NCBI GenBank assembly: GCA_003162335.1
Contig: PMMG01000016.1
Span: 1-35,099, forward strand
Direction of reading: 5' to 3'
Source of the DNA: Dehalococcoidia bacterium
GTDB taxonomy: Bacteria > Chloroflexota > Dehalococcoidia > Dehalococcoidales > Fen-1064
Length of the DNA: 35,099 bases
Within the stretch, counting starts at the first letter, position 1. Each line of letters begins with the position of its first letter. This document shows, one piece after another, positions 4,204 through 25,244 of this stretch. The notes under the pieces are model-generated. The model was given only the letters and a program-made list of their open reading frames with translations. It did no database searches and had not been told where the DNA came from. The position numbers were made by a program, and so were the translations under genes.

Positions 4204-4467
4204 CTATTTTACGGCGTTTAATTTCTTGATCAAACGGGCTTTGCGGCGGGCAGCATTATTAGGATGAATAATACCCTTTGAAGCCGCTTTATCCAGCGTG
4301 CTTAGGGCGGTCGCTGCTGCGGTCTTGGCTGTATCCGCTTTACCGGCGTTAATCGCTTTTTCCGCCTTGGTAATACTGCTCTTACACTCTGTGCGGATAG
4401 CTTTATTCCGAATAGTCCGCTTGGCGTCCGTACGCAACTGTCTGATTGATGAATCTATATTAGGCAA
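4204..4467 (-). CDS. rpsT: 30S ribosomal protein S20
   Basis: MPNIDSSIRQLRTDAKRTIRNKAIRTECKSSI...KGIIHPNNAARRKARLIKKLN. Confidence 0.93.
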   Translation of the reverse strand: MPNIDSSIRQLRTDAKRTIRNKAIRTECKSSITKAEKAINAGKADTAKTAAATALSTLDKAASKGIIHPNNAARRKARLIKKLNAVK

Positions 4468-4525
4468 TTTCTACCTCCTTACACTGTGTCCATAGCCTTA
4501 TATGCAAATTAAAATATTTTTAACA

Positions 4526-6709
4526 TTACGAAGTAGGTTTGATCGATGTCCCTTCACCCGCACGGGTGACATTAATGACCCCGCGGACACCTTCAATCCT
4601 GGATAGAACACGGCTCAACTGCCCCAGATCCTCGATGTCGATTGTGATCGAAATCATCGCTTGCTGGTCGGGTTTTTCGGAGACATTCATGTTAGCGATG
4701 TTGACTTTCTCCGCGGCCACTACTACAGTAATATCCCGCGCCAGGCCGACCCTGTTGAAAGCATCCACCACCACTGAAACCGGATAAGTCGTCCCGGTCT
4801 GTCCCCAATCGACCTCAATGAGCCTTTCTTTCTCTTCCTCATTAATAATGTTAATGCAATCTTTGCGGTGAACACTGACACCGCGATTGCGTGTTACAAA
4901 TCCGATTATCTCATCTCCGGGCACCGGATTGCAACATTGAGCGAGACTTGTCAGCATATCGCCCGCTCCCAGCACCCTGATGGAAGACGTCGAGACCTTG
5001 GCCGGTGTCGTACCGGTTGGTTTCACTACTTCAGGTTGTTCCGGCGCTAGTCTGGAGGCTATTTGCTGTGTGGTCACGCCTCCGTAACCCAGCGCCGCGT
5101 AAAATTCATCGATGGTATCGTAACTGAATAATTTCGAAATTTTTTCCCGCTCGGTGAATTTAATGCCAAGGTGCCGCATGAATTTATCCAGAATTTCCCG
5201 CCCGCGTTCGACATTTTCCGTCCGCTCCTGCTTTGTAAACCACTGCTTGATTTTCGAACGTGCGTGCGTAGTCTTAATGTAACCGAGGTTTTGATTCAAC
5301 CAATCGCGGCTGGGCGCGCGGGTCCCTTTGCTGGCCATGATTTCCACAATATCGCCGTTATGCAGTTCAGTATTCAGCGGCACCAGTTTACAGTTTACCT
5401 TGGCACCGATGCAGCGGTTTCCCAGGTCTGTATGGATACGATAGGCAAAATCCAGCGGAGTAGAACCCTTCGGCAGGTCCTTCACATCCCCTTTCGGCGT
5501 GTAGACAAAAACCTGGTCGCTGAACACGTCTGTTCTCACGGATTCCAGGAACTCTTCCGCTCCGCTCAATTCCCGGTGCCAGTCGATCAATTGCCGCAGC
5601 CAACCGATACCGTTTTCAAAACTGTTATCTTTCCGTCCGCCATCTTTATAGCGCCAGTGCACAGCCACACCGTATTCGGCAATGCGGTGCATTTCCCGCG
5701 TGCGTATCTGGATCTCCAGCGGCGTCGTCCGTTCGCACATTACTGTCGTATGCAGGGACTGGTAACCATTCATCTTGGGATTAGCAATATAGTCATCGAA
5801 CTGATCCGGCAGCGGATGCCAGAGGTTATGGACAATGCCTAAAGAGGCATAACAATCCTGAACCGTCTCCACCACCACTCTTAATGCCAGCAGGTCGTGG
5901 ATATCATCGAAATCTTTGCCCATGGCAATATATTTTTCAGTTTTCTGGTTGATACTGTAAATGTGCTTCGCGCGGCCTGTGATTTCCGCCTTGATGCCTG
6001 CCTTTTCAAATTCTTGTTTAAGCAGCCAGGTCACTTCCGCAATAAAACGCTCGCGGTCGGCACGCTTGCTGGCAATCAATGTTGCGATGCGGCGGTATTT
6101 CTCCGGTTCCAGGTAGCGAAAAGACAGGTCTTCCAGCTGCCATTTCACTTCCCAGATGCCCAAACGATGCGCTAGCGGCGCATAGATATCCAGTGTCTCG
6201 CGGGAAATACGTAATTGCTGTTCCGGCGTAAGCGCCTGCAGTGTGCGCATATTATGCAAACGGTCGGCAAGTTTGATGAAAACCACCCGCAGATCTTCTG
6301 CCATCGCTACCAGCATTTTCCGCAGGTTCTCCGCCTGGCTTGCGCCGCTTAGACCGCTGCCGCGCCTGGGGGTGACATTCGTGGTTGTAAGTGAAATCTT
6401 GCCCAGTTTGGTCGTGGCGTCCACCAGTTTGGCAATTTCCGGCCCGAACTTCTCCACTATCTCGGCGTTTTCCACACCGCAATTCTCTTCGACGTCATGC
6501 AGCAGAGCCGCGGCCAGCGAACTGGCATCCAGCTGCAGGTTCACCAGGATCATCGCCACGTGTAATGGGTGCTCGATGTAAGGTTCGCCGGATTTCCGCG
6601 TCTGGCCTTCATGGGCCTTGGCCGCAAACTCATAGGCCCGCTCGATGACAGCCATTTTTTCGGGCGGGAGATATGTTTTTGCTTTTTCGATGAGTTCAGC
6701 TACAGGCAC
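4526..6709 (-). CDS. rel: RelA/SpoT-family (p)ppGpp synthetase/hydrolase
   Basis: HD domain (HPLHVAMILVNLQLDASSLAAALLHDVEE), synthetase (NPKMNGYQSLHTTV), TGS (VFVYTPKGDVKDLPKGSTPLDFAYRIH), C-terminal ACT domain. Confidence 0.96.
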   Translation of the reverse strand: MPVAELIEKAKTYLPPEKMAVIERAYEFAAKAHEGQTRKSGEPYIEHPLHVAMILVNLQLDASSLAAALLHDVEENCGVENAEIVEKFGPEIAKLVDATTKLGKISLTTTNVTPRRGSGLSGASQAENLRKMLVAMAEDLRVVFIKLADRLHNMRTLQALTPEQQLRISRETLDIYAPLAHRLGIWEVKWQLEDLSFRYLEPEKYRRIATLIASKRADRERFIAEVTWLLKQEFEKAGIKAEITGRAKHIYSINQKTEKYIAMGKDFDDIHDLLALRVVVETVQDCYASLGIVHNLWHPLPDQFDDYIANPKMNGYQSLHTTVMCERTTPLEIQIRTREMHRIAEYGVAVHWRYKDGGRKDNSFENGIGWLRQLIDWHRELSGAEEFLESVRTDVFSDQVFVYTPKGDVKDLPKGSTPLDFAYRIHTDLGNRCIGAKVNCKLVPLNTELHNGDIVEIMASKGTRAPSRDWLNQNLGYIKTTHARSKIKQWFTKQERTENVERGREILDKFMRHLGIKFTEREKISKLFSYDTIDEFYAALGYGGVTTQQIASRLAPEQPEVVKPTGTTPAKVSTSSIRVLGAGDMLTSLAQCCNPVPGDEIIGFVTRNRGVSVHRKDCINIINEEEKERLIEVDWGQTGTTYPVSVVVDAFNRVGLARDITVVVAAEKVNIANMNVSEKPDQQAMISITIDIEDLGQLSRVLSRIEGVRGVINVTRAGEGTSIKPTS

Positions 6710-13859: not shown

Positions 13860-14023
13860 TGAGATTGTCCGAAATTCCCTGGATTGTCGGGTTAAGCCCG
13901 ACAATGACAATAACAAATATTCTATTCCAGCAAAGCTGGAATAGAATATTCACGAATTGTCATTCCCGACCTGATCGGGAATCCATATAAATTTTTTCGA
14001 ATATCTATTTTCGGACAGCCTCA
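13860..14023 (-). repeat. MITE-like element copy A (inverse orientation relative to B-D)
   Basis: TGAGATTGTCCGA...TCGGACAGCCTCA terminal inverted repeats with three internal palindromes shared with copies at 21487, 24392 and 25007. Confidence 0.85.
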
Positions 14024-18812: not shown

Positions 18813-21293
18813 ATGTCGAACAAACCCGGATCGGAGAAAACAACCAAAGCCAGCATCCCCATCACGGGGATGACCTGTACTACCTGCGCCGTTACCATCG
18901 AGAAAGGCCTGGCAGAAACCCCCGGCGTAGAGAAGGCCGCAGTTAATTTCGGTTCGGAAAAAGCCACAATAGCATATAACCCGGATAAAGTCAGCCTGGA
19001 GCAAATCAAGGAAACCATCTCCGGATTAGGCTATGCAGTCGCCACCCAAAAATCCATTTACCTCGTCACCGGCATGATGTGCGCCACTTGCGTACAGCAT
19101 GTGGAAGAAGCGCTGAAAAGCGTGCCCGGCGTGGTCTCGGCCGTCGTCAACCTGGGTTCGGAAAAAGCTACTGTTGAATACCTGCCGGGTGTCACCTATG
19201 CGGATTTGAAAAAAGCCGTCGCGGATGCCGGTTATGAACTGGGCGCGGAATTAAAAGCCCTTGAAGATGTCAGCGCGACAGCGCAGCGCGAAGTCCGCAA
19301 AATCCGGAACCGGTTTATTTTTGCCGCGATTCTAACCGTTCCAATTGTTATTATGATGCTCACCCCGACCTTTAAAGGCATGGAATATTTGCTCTGGGCG
19401 CTGGCCACACCGGTGCAGTTCTGGGCCGGCTGGCGTTTTTACAAAGGGGCCTGGGGCGCGCTCCGGCACCGCACCACCGATATGAATACGCTCATCGCCG
19501 TGGGGACTTCCGCGGCTTATCTTTACAGCGTGGTTGCCACGCTGTTCCCTTCACTATTCACCTCCAATGGCTTGAAGGCGAATGTCTATTTCGATACTTC
19601 CTCGGCGATTATCACCCTGATCCTGCTGGGACGGTACCTGGAAGCCCGCGCCAAAGGCCGGACCTCGGAAGCCATTAAAAAACTGATCGGACTGCAGCCG
19701 AAAACCGCCGTTGTGGTACGGGACGGCCAGGAACAGCAAATTCCTATCGATGCAGTGCTCACCGGCGACCTCGTGCTGGTCAAACCCGGCGAGCGCGTGC
19801 CGGTCGACGGCATCCTGCGCGAGGGCTATTCGAGCCTGGACGAATCGATGATCACCGGTGAAAGCATCCCCGTCGAAAAGAAACCGGGGGATGAGGTCAT
19901 CGGCGCTACGATCAATAAGACCGGCAGCTTCCGGTTCGAGGCTACCAAAATCGGCAAAGATACCACGCTGGCGCGCATCGTCCGGCTGGTGGAAGAAGCG
20001 CAGGGCAGCAAAGCCCCGGTGCAAAGACTGGCCGATGTCATCGCCAGCTATTTCGTCCCGATCGTCATCAGCATCGCCGTGATTACTTTCCTTGTCTGGT
20101 TTTTTGCCGGTCCGTCGCCGTCATTAACCTACGCCTTCCTCAACTTCGTGGCAGTGCTGGTTATTGCCTGCCCCTGTGCATTGGGTCTGGCCACACCCAC
20201 CGCGATCATTGTCGGCACCGGCAAAGGGGCTGAATACGGCATCCTCATCCGCAGCGCCGAAACACTGGAAAAAGCGCATAAAATCAACGCCGTCCTTTTA
20301 GACAAGACCGGCACTTTGACGCTGGGAAAACCGGCAGTCACGGATGTTATTCCCGCGGCGGGTTTTACCGAAGCGGAAATCCTGCGTCTGGCCGCCTCCG
20401 CCGAAAAGAACTCCGAGCACTCACTGGCTGAAGCAATCGTCAAAGCAGCGGCAGTGAAAGGTCTGGAGCTTTCACCCGCGACCGAGTTTAATGCCATGCC
20501 CGGCTTCGGCATCGAAGCAATGGTGGAAGGTAAAAAACTGTTGTTGGGCAATTTGAAATTGACACAGGAACACAATCTGGTTTTAGGCCAGCAGGAAGTG
20601 CGCGCCAATGAACTGTGGTATGAAGGTAAAACCGTTATGTTCGTCGGCATCGACGGACAGGCTGCAGGCTTGATCGCGCTGGCCGATACCATCAAGCCCG
20701 ACGCTGTTTATGTCGTCAAACAATTGCAAAAGATGGGTATCGAAGTGGCAATGGTCACCGGCGATAATCAGCGCACCGCCGAGGCGATCTCCAAACAGGC
20801 CGGAATCGAGCGCGTTTTTGCGGATGTCCTGCCGGAACATAAAGCCGACGAAGTGAAAAAACTGCAGGCAGAAGGTAAGGTCGTCGCAATGGTCGGCGAC
20901 GGCATCAACGACGCCCCTGCTTTAGCCCAGGCGGATGTCGGTATCGCCATCGGCACCGGCACGGATGTTGCCATGGAAACCGGCGATATTACGCTAATCC
21001 GCGGCGAATTAAGCGGTATCCCCACCGCGATTGCCTTGAGCAAACGCACGCTGCGCACAATCCGCCAGAACCTCTTCTGGGCATTTGCCTATAACGTCAT
21101 CCTGATTCCGGTTGCCGCCGGTATTTTATACCTTGTCTTCAGAAATAATCCGGTGCCTTCCGGCCTCCATTTTATTCTCGGCGACCGCGGCTTTTTAAAC
21201 CCGATCATGGCCGCAGCAGCGATGGCTTTAAGCTCCATCACCGTCGTCACCAATTCCCTGCGCCTCCGCACCTTCAAACATGTTAAGGCTTAA
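18813..21293 (+). CDS. copA: Copper-translocating P-type ATPase with two N-terminal HMA domains
   Basis: GMTCTTC and GMMCATC metal-binding motifs, [44 protein letters not shown]. Confidence 0.95.
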
Positions 21294-21486: not shown

Positions 21487-21696
21487 TGAGATTGTCCGAA
21501 AAATACCTATTGTAAGAAATTCATATGGATTCCTCCCGCGCTTCCTTTTGGAAATTGATATGAGTGAGGGACCTGCGGCGATCAAGTCGGGAATGACAAG
21601 TCGTGAATATTCTATTACAGTGAAACTGTAATAGAATATTTGTTTTTGTCATTGTCGGGCTTGACCCGACAATCCAGGATATTTCAGACAGCCTCA
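21487..21696 (+). repeat. MITE-like element copy B (with internal insertion), homology tail to about 21765
   Basis: TGAGATTGTCCGAAAAATAC...TTTCAGACAGCCTCA; same internal palindromes as A, C, D. Confidence 0.85.
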
Positions 21697-21966
21697 TAAG
21701 ATACTTACCAAATAATGTATTAAGGCCACAGTACTTTTTTGTAATCAATTACATCAAAATGTGGGAAGTGATTATTTCAACTAACTGCAGACCTCGGAGG
21801 GATTTTATTGATAAAAGTGGCACAGGCTTCTGCGCCAATAGTAATGGTGACTTAACATATAAATAACTGCAATAATTCCCTTGATTAAACACCTGAAATA
21901 CGTTATATTGATCTGAAAAGAACTATTCCGGAGAGATATAATGACCGGTAATAAAGGGGGCAAAGA

Positions 21967-22773
21967 GTGTTTGAAATCATCAACTCACCCTGGACAAAAA
22001 CAATCATGCGTCCCTTACTTAACAAAGACTTGGGGGCAGGATACAAAAGCCCTTCCCAAAAAATCAGAGTGTTAACCGAAGAATGGGTTGGCGAGGAAGT
22101 TTTTTGTCCATCTTGCGGCGCATGTATCAACAGATACGAGCATAATCGTCCCGTTGCCGACTTCTACTGTCCCATCTGTAAAGAAGAATATGAACGCAAA
22201 AGTAAGAGAAAAAGTTTTGGCAGTAAGATTGTAGATGGAGCTTTTGAGACTGCCATTGAACGATTAAAAGGCAACCTTAATCCTAATTTATTCTTATTGG
22301 CTTATAACCCGCAGAATTATGAGGTCTTGAATTTCTGCGTCATACCAAAGTATTTCTTTGTTCCCCAGACAGTAGAAAAACGTAAACCACTTACTAAAAC
22401 TGCACGCAGAGCTGGCTGGGTTGGTTGTAATTTTGTCCTAGACAGTATTCCACAAACGGCGAGAATATTCTACATCAAAGATAAGGTTCAATTGCCCTAT
22501 AAAGGCATATTAGAGCATTGGAAGAAAACACTGTTTTTGAAGGAAGAACCAAGACTTGGGGAGCGAGGCTGGATAATAGATATCATGAATTGCATCGATA
22601 AGCTTGGTATGAAGGAATTCTCACTTGCTGATGTTTATGTTTTCGAAAAGGAGTTGTATATAAAACACCCACATAACCTCCATATACGAGACAAGATCAG
22701 ACAACAACTGCAGATATTGAGAGATAGTGGCTATTTAGAATTTCTGGGACGAGGAAGGTATCGAAGAACGTAA
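21967..22773 (+). CDS. dpnI: DpnI-like type IIM (methyl-directed) restriction endonuclease
   Basis: Strong recalled similarity to DpnI: SQKIRVLTEEWV..CPSCG..NRPVADFYCPICKEEYERKSK (PD-(D/E)XK plus Cys4 zinc site), RKPLTKTARRAGWVGCN, RGWIIDIMNCIDKLG, IRDKIRQQLQILRDSGYLEFLGRGRYR (C-terminal wHTH). GTG start called; internal ATG at 22006 is an alternative. Confidence 0.92.
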   Translation: MFEIINSPWTKTIMRPLLNKDLGAGYKSPSQKIRVLTEEWVGEEVFCPSCGACINRYEHNRPVADFYCPICKEEYERKSKRKSFGSKIVDGAFETAIERLKGNLNPNLFLLAYNPQNYEVLNFCVIPKYFFVPQTVEKRKPLTKTARRAGWVGCNFVLDSIPQTARIFYIKDKVQLPYKGILEHWKKTLFLKEEPRLGERGWIIDIMNCIDKLGMKEFSLADVYVFEKELYIKHPHNLHIRDKIRQQLQILRDSGYLEFLGRGRYRRT

Positions 22774-23033
22774 TGAGAGAATATATTTTTCTTACATCCG
22801 AAGGCACAACATTTCAGCCTGATAGCACCAGTTCAGAGCCTGATATTGAAAATATGCAAGTAATAGGCTTTGTTGGCGGCGATACAGTTCAAGACGCCGT
22901 GATAAGGTTGGTTGAGCTAAATGAGTACTTAGCCAACACGAATTTCGATGAAATCTTCGCAATTTCGCTTGCAGATGACCACCGGGAATACTTCTCTCTG
23001 AGAGATATCTTACGGAAATCTGGTGGCACTTGA
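22773..23033 (+). CDS. Small hypothetical protein coupled to the DpnI-like gene
   Basis: Start overlaps the DpnI stop (TAATG); 86 aa; same low-GC composition. Confidence 0.6.
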   Translation: MREYIFLTSEGTTFQPDSTSSEPDIENMQVIGFVGGDTVQDAVIRLVELNEYLANTNFDEIFAISLADDHREYFSLRDILRKSGGT

Positions 23034-23111
23034 TACGTGATTTAGATACAAATGCCCGAAAAAGCAGGAGCAACTTGTTTTTGGAAACTCTGGAGGGAAG
23101 GAGAACCTACA

Positions 23112-23411
23112 ATGAGAGCTTGGGTAAATGGTATCGAATGTCGGTTTTTCTATGATGAGGTTATTTCGGATGAGAAAGCACCTGATGGTTATTCTTATCG
23201 ATATTACCTGAGACACGATGAAGACAACTGGATTAAACCGATAAGCATAGAACCGCATGTATTTGTTAACTTTTTTGGCACGGTATTTATGAAAGACCAA
23301 TTGGAATTTGATAAAAACAGGTATATTGATGTAAACAAATTTAAATTCGAAGGGAAATATGTTGTCTTTGGAATACGAAAAACAGCGACGAACAAAATGC
23401 TGGGAATATAA
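23112..23411 (+). CDS. Small hypothetical protein, third gene of the DpnI-like island
   Basis: Start placed at ATGAGAGCTTGG preceded by GGAGGGAAGGAG (the track's 23052 start lacks an obvious RBS). Confidence 0.55.
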   Translation: MRAWVNGIECRFFYDEVISDEKAPDGYSYRYYLRHDEDNWIKPISIEPHVFVNFFGTVFMKDQLEFDKNRYIDVNKFKFEGKYVVFGIRKTATNKMLGI

Positions 23412-23437: not shown

Positions 23438-24352
23438 CTATCCCTTCATTCTCTGCAAATACTTGTGTGCCTGCAGCGCCGCTTTGGCGCCTTCCCCGGC
23501 CGCTATGACAATCTGCTTTTCCGGCACGTTCGTCACGTCCCCCGCAGCAAAAAGCCCGGGTATTTCTGTCTCGCAGGAGCAATTGACCGGCACCTCGCCG
23601 CTGTGATTCAGCTTCAATAAATCCTTGACCATATCGGAGTTCGGCGCCAACCCGATTTCGATGAACACCCCGGTATCATCCAGCTGGCGGCTTTCCCCCG
23701 TTTTCATGTTTTTCACCACGATACCGTCTACGAGACCCATGCCCAGCACTTTTTCCGTCTGGTATTCCGTATAAATAGTCAAATTTTTGGCTTCTGCCAG
23801 TTTCTCGATCATGATTGCGTCGCCGGAAAGCGGCGTGACTGAGACCATGTCCACGTGCTCCGCGATTTTCACCATATCCAACGCCGCCTCGATCGCCGAA
23901 TTGCCGCCGCCGATCACCGCCACTTTTTGTCCGGCAAAGATCGGACCGTCACAGATCGCGCAGTAAGTAACGCCGCGCCCGGTCAATTCCATTTCGCCTT
24001 CCACATTCAGCCGCCGCGGTCGTTTTCCGGAGGCCAGTAGCACCACTTTACCCTGGTATGCTTCCCCCGCTTCGCACACAACCTCGAAACCACCCTCGAT
24101 CTTCTTGATCTGTTTTACTTTAGGACCGATTTTTTTAGCGATCGGAAACTGCTCGACCTGCTGCTGGAATTTGGCGATCAGGTCGCGCCCTTCGATGAAC
24201 TGGTATCCCAGGTAATTCTCGACGCCGCTCGTCCAGTTCACCTGCCCGCCGATATCGCTGGCAATCAACAAAGTGTCAACTCTTTTCCGTGCCGAATAGA
24301 CTGCTGCCGCCATGCCTGCCGGCCCGCCGCCGACGATAATTATTTCGTACAT
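23438..24352 (-). CDS. trxB: Thioredoxin reductase (NAD(P)/FAD-dependent)
   Basis: YEIIIVGGGPAGMAAAVYSARKR, GVTYCAICDGPIF (CxxC), AVIGGGNSAIEAAL, GLFAAGDVTNVPEKQIVIAAGEGAKAA; start at ATGTAC with GGAGG upstream. Confidence 0.93.
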   Translation of the reverse strand: MYEIIIVGGGPAGMAAAVYSARKRVDTLLIASDIGGQVNWTSGVENYLGYQFIEGRDLIAKFQQQVEQFPIAKKIGPKVKQIKKIEGGFEVVCEAGEAYQGKVVLLASGKRPRRLNVEGEMELTGRGVTYCAICDGPIFAGQKVAVIGGGNSAIEAALDMVKIAEHVDMVSVTPLSGDAIMIEKLAEAKNLTIYTEYQTEKVLGMGLVDGIVVKNMKTGESRQLDDTGVFIEIGLAPNSDMVKDLLKLNHSGEVPVNCSCETEIPGLFAAGDVTNVPEKQIVIAAGEGAKAALQAHKYLQRMKG

Positions 24353-24391
24353 CAAACCTCCGGGGGTCAAATAATTTATCAGTCAGAATTA

Positions 24392-24554
24392 TGAAGCTGT
24401 CCGAAAATACTATTGGTAGAAATTTATATGGATTCCCGATCAGGTCGGGAATGACAAGTCGTGGATATTCTATTCCAGCAAAACTGGAATGGAATATTCG
24501 TTTTTGTCATTGTCGGGCTTGACCCGACAATCCAGAATATTTCGGACAACCTCA
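24392..24554 (+). repeat. MITE-like element copy C
   Basis: TGAAGCTGTCCGAAAATAC...TTTCGGACAACCTCA with three internal palindromes. Confidence 0.88.
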
Positions 24555-24608
24555 CAAGGTACTTACGAAGTAATGTATCAAGAGAGAATTGCCCTTTAAC
24601 TAATCCAC

Positions 24609-25006: not shown

Positions 25007-25170
25007 TGAGGCTGTCCGACAATAGCTATTGGAAGAAATTTATATGGATTCCCGATCAGGTCGGGAATGACAAGTCGTGGATATTCTATTCCAGCAAAAC
25101 TGGAATAAAATATTCGTTTTTGTCATTGTCGGGCTTGACCCGACAATCCAGAAGATATTAGACAGCTCCA
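25007..25170 (+). repeat. MITE-like element copy D, homology tail to about 25217
   Basis: TGAGGCTGTCCGACAATAG...ATTAGACAGCTCCA; nearly identical internally to copy C. Confidence 0.88.
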
Positions 25171-25244
25171 CTGCTATAGTACTTTATTTTGTAATCAACC
25201 ACTTAAAATAAATGTAGAGCGAGTTGGAGGGGGCGAATCAACAT

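Follow-up and report, generated by a model that had tools for sequence, protein, structure and literature searches.

The dpnI locus of a Dehalococcoidia bacterium and the remains of a DpnII-type operon at related loci

The dpnI gene and the insert between copA and trxB

We analyzed a stretch of 35,099 nucleotides (hereafter the window) that belongs to one contig of a 2.8-Mb Dehalococcoidia genome, assembled into 179 contigs and 86% complete. The features of the locus, together with those of two related loci, are listed in Table 1. The copA-type and trxB-type genes are separated here by about 2.1 kb, occupied by dpnI, a small ORF, a scrap of a DpnII gene and an LPD28-domain gene, whereas in four same-genus genomes (G001-G004) the gap measures 190-490 bp and lacks dpnI. 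The gene order copA, trxB, sbcC and PCC-domain gene is conserved in four same-genus genomes, and because synteny holds on both sides, a binning error is unlikely. The GC content of dpnI, the small ORF and the LPD28-domain gene is 40.0%, 42.1% and 36.7%, respectively, against 51.4% ± 2.2% for 23 neighboring CDS. A preliminary description of this DNA had proposed an accessory island, lower in GC than its flanks and horizontally acquired; the site, empty in four congeners, and the insert genes of 37-42% GC agree with each of these points. The LPD28-domain gene, located between the DpnII scrap and trxB, has no counterpart next to dpnI in the relatives examined. The palindromic repeat upstream of dpnI has further copies at 13860-13977, 24410-24555 and 25026-25171, and is also present on further contigs of this assembly (L025, L026).

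Table 1. Features of the dpnI locus in the window and of the corresponding loci in two relatives
Feature	Coordinates	Strand	Remarks
Window: copA-type P-ATPase gene, left flank	18813..21293	+	Pfam E1-E2_ATPase/HMA; 71-76% DNA identity in same-genus/same-family genomes
Window: dispersed palindromic repeat copy	21552..21697	.	~146 nt; in low-GC stretch 5' of dpnI
Window: dpnI	22006..22773	+	255 aa; PF06044, PF17726, 4esj, mREase_II; start by homology
Window: small ORF	22773..23033	+	86 aa; shares one base with dpnI stop
Window: DpnII endonuclease gene scrap	23042..23092	+	LDTNARKSRSNLFLETL; tblastn
Window: LPD28-domain gene	23112..23411	+	PF18843 E 9e-15; possible start 23052
Window: trxB-type reductase gene, right flank	23438..24370	-	Pfam Pyr_redox_2
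G091 (L020): methylase stump	4906-4526	-	residues 1-123
G091 (L020): dpnI	4493-3729	-	
G091 (L020): small ORF	3726-3469	-	
G091 (L020): DpnII stump	3452-3309	-	residues 251-298
G008 (L019): methylase stump	4001-4375		residues 1-121
G008 (L019): dpnI	4414-5175		
G008 (L019): small ORF	5178-5435		
G008 (L019): DpnII stump	5431-5571		residues 252-298

The open frame that contains dpnI runs from 21967 to 22773 on the forward strand, and the preliminary description had equated the gene with it. The frame exists as stated, but its GTG at 21967 would add 13 unconserved residues to the product. Since homologous DNA in relatives begins at about 21992, some 15 nt 5' of the ATG at 22006, and the relatives' DpnI proteins start with MRLLLNKDL in sequence comparison, this ATG is preferred and is probably the true start, giving a product of 255 residues compared with 254 for DpnI. 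The GTG, which is directly preceded by GGGGG, may be used instead.

The predicted protein matches the Pfam families DpnI (PF06044; E 2e-69, profile positions 4-182 of 183) and DpnI_C (PF17726; E 2e-32, profile positions 2-69 of 70), both far over the cut-off, as well as the PADLOC model mREase_II for type II methyl-directed enzymes (E 1e-102). The solved R.DpnI chain 4esj is matched over residues 18-267, nearly the whole length (E 2e-78), at about 50% identity. At the level of sequence, these matches confirm that 22006-22773 (+) encodes a full-length DpnI, as had been proposed, and the enzyme itself is an ordinary one of an already known kind. The nearest named relatives of the gene lie in Dehalococcoidales MAGs, and the DpnI proteins of the two relatives in Table 1 are 75% and 81% identical to that of the window. 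Residue conservation was read from an alignment of 12 DpnI family members from several phyla. The zinc cysteines (C34, C37, C55 and C58), the PD-(D/E)XK residues (D52, E63 and K65, corresponding to family residues D53, E64 and K66) and R135 are invariant in all 12, while the methyl-pocket residues L129, W138 and G140 are shared by every member but one, a divergent Neisseria homolog; the roles of the pocket and catalytic residues are those described in PMC4117772. The window protein has the entire methyl pocket (L129, R135, and W138 with G140). The motifs quoted in the preliminary description are therefore real, and the check on catalytic residues that it had called for, made here by alignment, revealed no loss of any of them.

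The small ORF lies directly 3' of dpnI in four close copies of the locus and in an Arcicella MAG; it is 66-77% identical in G008, G091 and STD1_192, and 37% identical in Arcicella. It has no Pfam match and occupies a dpnD-like position, although it belongs to a different family: a DpnD gene (PF14207) follows dpnI in G047, G080 and a Thermoguttaceae MAG, but not in the window. Within the class, the small ORF is infrequent, with 2 of 394 genomes carrying it. Its structure was modeled with moderate confidence (pLDDT 74) as a beta-beta-alpha-beta-beta-alpha chain, a fold without a PDB match at E <= 0.001. In G073 (L071 5-1133), a member 60% identical to that of the window lies beside an apparently intact DpnA-like methylase gene at a locus without dpnI, so the family is not tied to dpnI alone. 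Two divergent dpnI genes of the same class, in G270 (L079 1501-2280) and G408 (L080 1261-2043), are followed by a conserved ORF of 113-117 aa without a Pfam match, which represents another family in the dpnD position.

Stumps of a DpnA-DpnII operon around dpnI

In G091 and G008, the cassette of dpnI and small ORF is flanked by two stumps, the 5' part of a DpnA-like methylase gene on one side and the 3' part of a DpnII gene on the other (Table 1). The DpnII stump of G091 exceeds the Pfam cut-off, and a third relative, STD1_192 (L013), retains a shorter methylase scrap that ends just 5' of dpnI. The likely source of such stumps is an operon of the DpnII/LlaDCHI type, of which the congener G002 carries an intact pair consisting of a 322-aa DpnA-like methylase and a 302-aa DpnII. 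The G002 methylase is 53% identical to M2 from the GATC-specific pSRQ700 operon of Lactococcus, in which M2 is the second methylase and is accompanied by a methylase of the Dam type and an endonuclease of type II. Unlike operons of this type, G002 has no PF02086 match to a DpnM-type methylase, and the dpnI carriers of the window's clade retain fragments only. Among 101 relatives, the search for DpnII recovered four strong full-length genes, none of them in a dpnI carrier, whereas isolated C-terminal pieces of DpnII were found only twice, both at dpnI loci. We considered whether the stumps might still function as fragments and rejected this: the methylase stump has lost its C-terminal half, in which the cofactor motif lies, and just about 48 residues of DpnII are left. 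In another dpnI clade, represented by G066 (L021 2489-3733), the first 38 aa of a beta-class methylase are encoded upstream of dpnI and stop 6 nt short of it, and dpnI is followed by a different small ORF; this arrangement also occurs in L022, and L014 is similar. The generic methylase start was considered as a further stump and set aside, its match being weak (E 0.005).

DNA homology between G008 and G091 extends through the stumps and stops near their outer edges, so the stumps could serve as recombination arms. This gives some weight to allelic exchange, in which DpnI and DpnII cassettes sharing a locus as alternatives would have recombined and left the stumps, with no insertion of dpnI into a working DpnII operon; pneumococcal cassettes do alternate at a single locus (PMC12707154). 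The stumps are, however, truncated coding sequence and not neutral flanks, which implies at least one founding event that broke both genes; we regard exchange as possible but less likely than insertion.

In the window, positions 23042-23092 read LDTNARKSRSNLFLETL, compared with LDTNARKNRSGLFLEKM in intact DpnII, and correspond to 17 codons matching residues 155-171 of the G002 enzyme. A Pfam search does not detect this short scrap, and no methylase scrap was detected 5' of dpnI in the window. The preliminary description had reported no methylase here, and this part of its account of the neighborhood stands; the DpnII scrap and the relatives' wrecked operon had escaped it. That the match is due to chance, and that the window cassette was never part of a restriction-modification (R-M) operon, might be argued from its shortness, its invisibility to Pfam and the missing methylase scrap, but we consider this very improbable. 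The scrap is the best tblastn match in the whole window, its E-value of 0.003 being some three orders of magnitude lower than that of the next best match (5.2); none of 200 shuffles attained its score, and it lies in the correct orientation directly at the 3' edge of the cassette, where the relatives hold their DpnII stumps. In the dpnI tree, the window copy falls within the scar-bearing clade (support 100/100), with G008 as its sister at weak support (87/85). Because the scrap maps to DpnII residues 155-171 and the relatives' junction lies at about residue 251, a single shared event is not proven: either different deletions followed one founding event, or the events were separate.

GATC sites and methylases in the host and its relatives

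The window contains 152 GATC sites, 0.85 of the Markov expectation, one of them within dpnI. The preliminary description had noted GATC sites in and around the gene and had seen no methylase in the window; the sites are confirmed, and no GATC methylase was recognized in the window or elsewhere in the 86%-complete assembly. Searches of this assembly yielded no Dam-type methylase (PF02086), no phage-type Dam (PF05869), no DpnII (PF04556) and no DpnA-like methylase gene. The host's single PF01555 gene carries a TSPPY motif, which is typical of m4C enzymes. Taken as sequence evidence, this supports, but cannot prove, the view that the host does not methylate GATC.

Candidate GATC-methylated donors are present among the relatives, of which 20 of 101 exceed the PF02086 cut-off, not all of them necessarily GATC-specific. 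PF02086 matches were found in one of seven dpnI carriers versus 23 of the 94 other genomes, a distribution that is only suggestive of mutual exclusion between dpnI and Dam. G047 and G080 carry dpnI plus other beta-class methylases that may or may not target GATC, and G080 has PF02086 matches besides dpnI. In G047 (L087 1279-3236), a beta-class methylase gene adjoins a weak DpnII-like endonuclease gene about 11 kb from dpnI; if this methylase targets GATC, the exclusion rule fails. In the Arcicella MAG (L016 4995-6511), dpnI and the small ORF converge with an overlap of a few bases on a gene of the phage-type Dam family (PF05869), a combination that would be odd unless the Dam-family gene is not expressed or its product methylates a different site. 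The annotated phage set gave one partial match to the DpnI wing domain, and none of the papers searched dealt with restriction by DpnI in Dehalococcoidia.

A possible route for the acquisition of DpnI

We consider it very likely, judging from the comparisons above, that the window encodes a working DpnI whose cassette became established by replacing the interior of a DpnII-type R-M operon and now forms a low-GC insert that retains a DpnII scrap. The product would be a type IIM DpnI in which N6-methyladenine at GATC is checked twice, by the PD-(D/E)XK domain and by the winged helix, and it would cut DNA arriving from donors and phages that methylate GATC, a putative role in defense. A partner methylase would be unneeded, because the host apparently does not methylate GATC. 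The cassette of dpnI and the 86-aa ORF would first have replaced the inside of an operon of DpnA-like methylase and DpnII. Such a landing place would be safe in a single step, because insertion would at once abolish the methylation that makes DpnI suicidal; residual marks would still need to be diluted by replication, with or without help from the small ORF. The cassette would thereafter have come to lie between copA and trxB, still with its piece of the DpnII gene. That the window gene is instead an inactive passenger, or that its product has come to recognize a different methylated site and does not restrict Gm6ATC in this host, seems to us highly unlikely: its start codon is uncertain, the second half of the DpnI recognition logic lies beyond sequence reading and Neisseria often has frameshifted alleles of dpnI (PMC516771), but the frame is open, all catalytic, zinc and methyl-pocket residues are kept, and the copies in other genera, at 75-81% identity, all have open frames as well.

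Three known systems offer points of comparison. R.DpnI (dpnC) of Streptococcus pneumoniae (PDB 4esj/4kyw) shares the full two-domain length, the conserved residues and about half of its sequence with the window protein, which differs in its Chloroflexota host, in the small ORF that takes the place of DpnD, and in being known here from sequence. In Neisseria, the dam-replacing gene drg (NmeBII) has replaced dam, leaving a truncated dam in a low-GC setting (PMC516771, PMC4269198). The likeness lies in a low-GC DpnI-family gene displacing a GATC methylase, and gonococcal drg is followed by a broken DpnA-like methylase gene; drg, however, is described as inserted at the Dam gene beside leuS, whereas the operon displaced in the Chloroflexota relatives encoded a DpnA-like methylase and DpnII and left scars on both sides. 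As regards a drg-like locus, that is, dpnI within the remains of a GATC methylase or R-M system, G091 and G008 show both stumps and the window shows the 17-codon DpnII scrap as its sole remnant. Pneumococci carry alternative DpnI, DpnII or DpnIII cassettes at the same place (PMC12707154, PMC3573125), so that DpnI and DpnII systems likewise share one location in alternative genomes. They differ from the Chloroflexota relatives, which retain the broken ends of the DpnII operon next to dpnI, and from the window, whose cassette occupies a site that is empty in congeners. A more far-reaching idea, which we regard as doubtful, is that of a converting cassette: the truncated methylase and endonuclease genes at its edges would provide homology for recombination, so that DpnII-type operons at various chromosomal sites could each become DpnI-type in a single step, while the small ORF would restrain DpnI until the old marks are diluted.

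In a cell with GATC methylation, DpnI is expected to be lethal, which raises the puzzle of how a lineage can acquire dpnI at all. The position of dpnI between a broken GATC methylase gene and a broken DpnII gene suggests an answer, namely that the cassette erases the mark on landing, and the cassette apparently removed methylation while installing the methyl-directed nuclease. The Chloroflexota case is a further, two-sided example alongside drg and the pneumococcal cassettes, and together with them it hints at a recurring rule.
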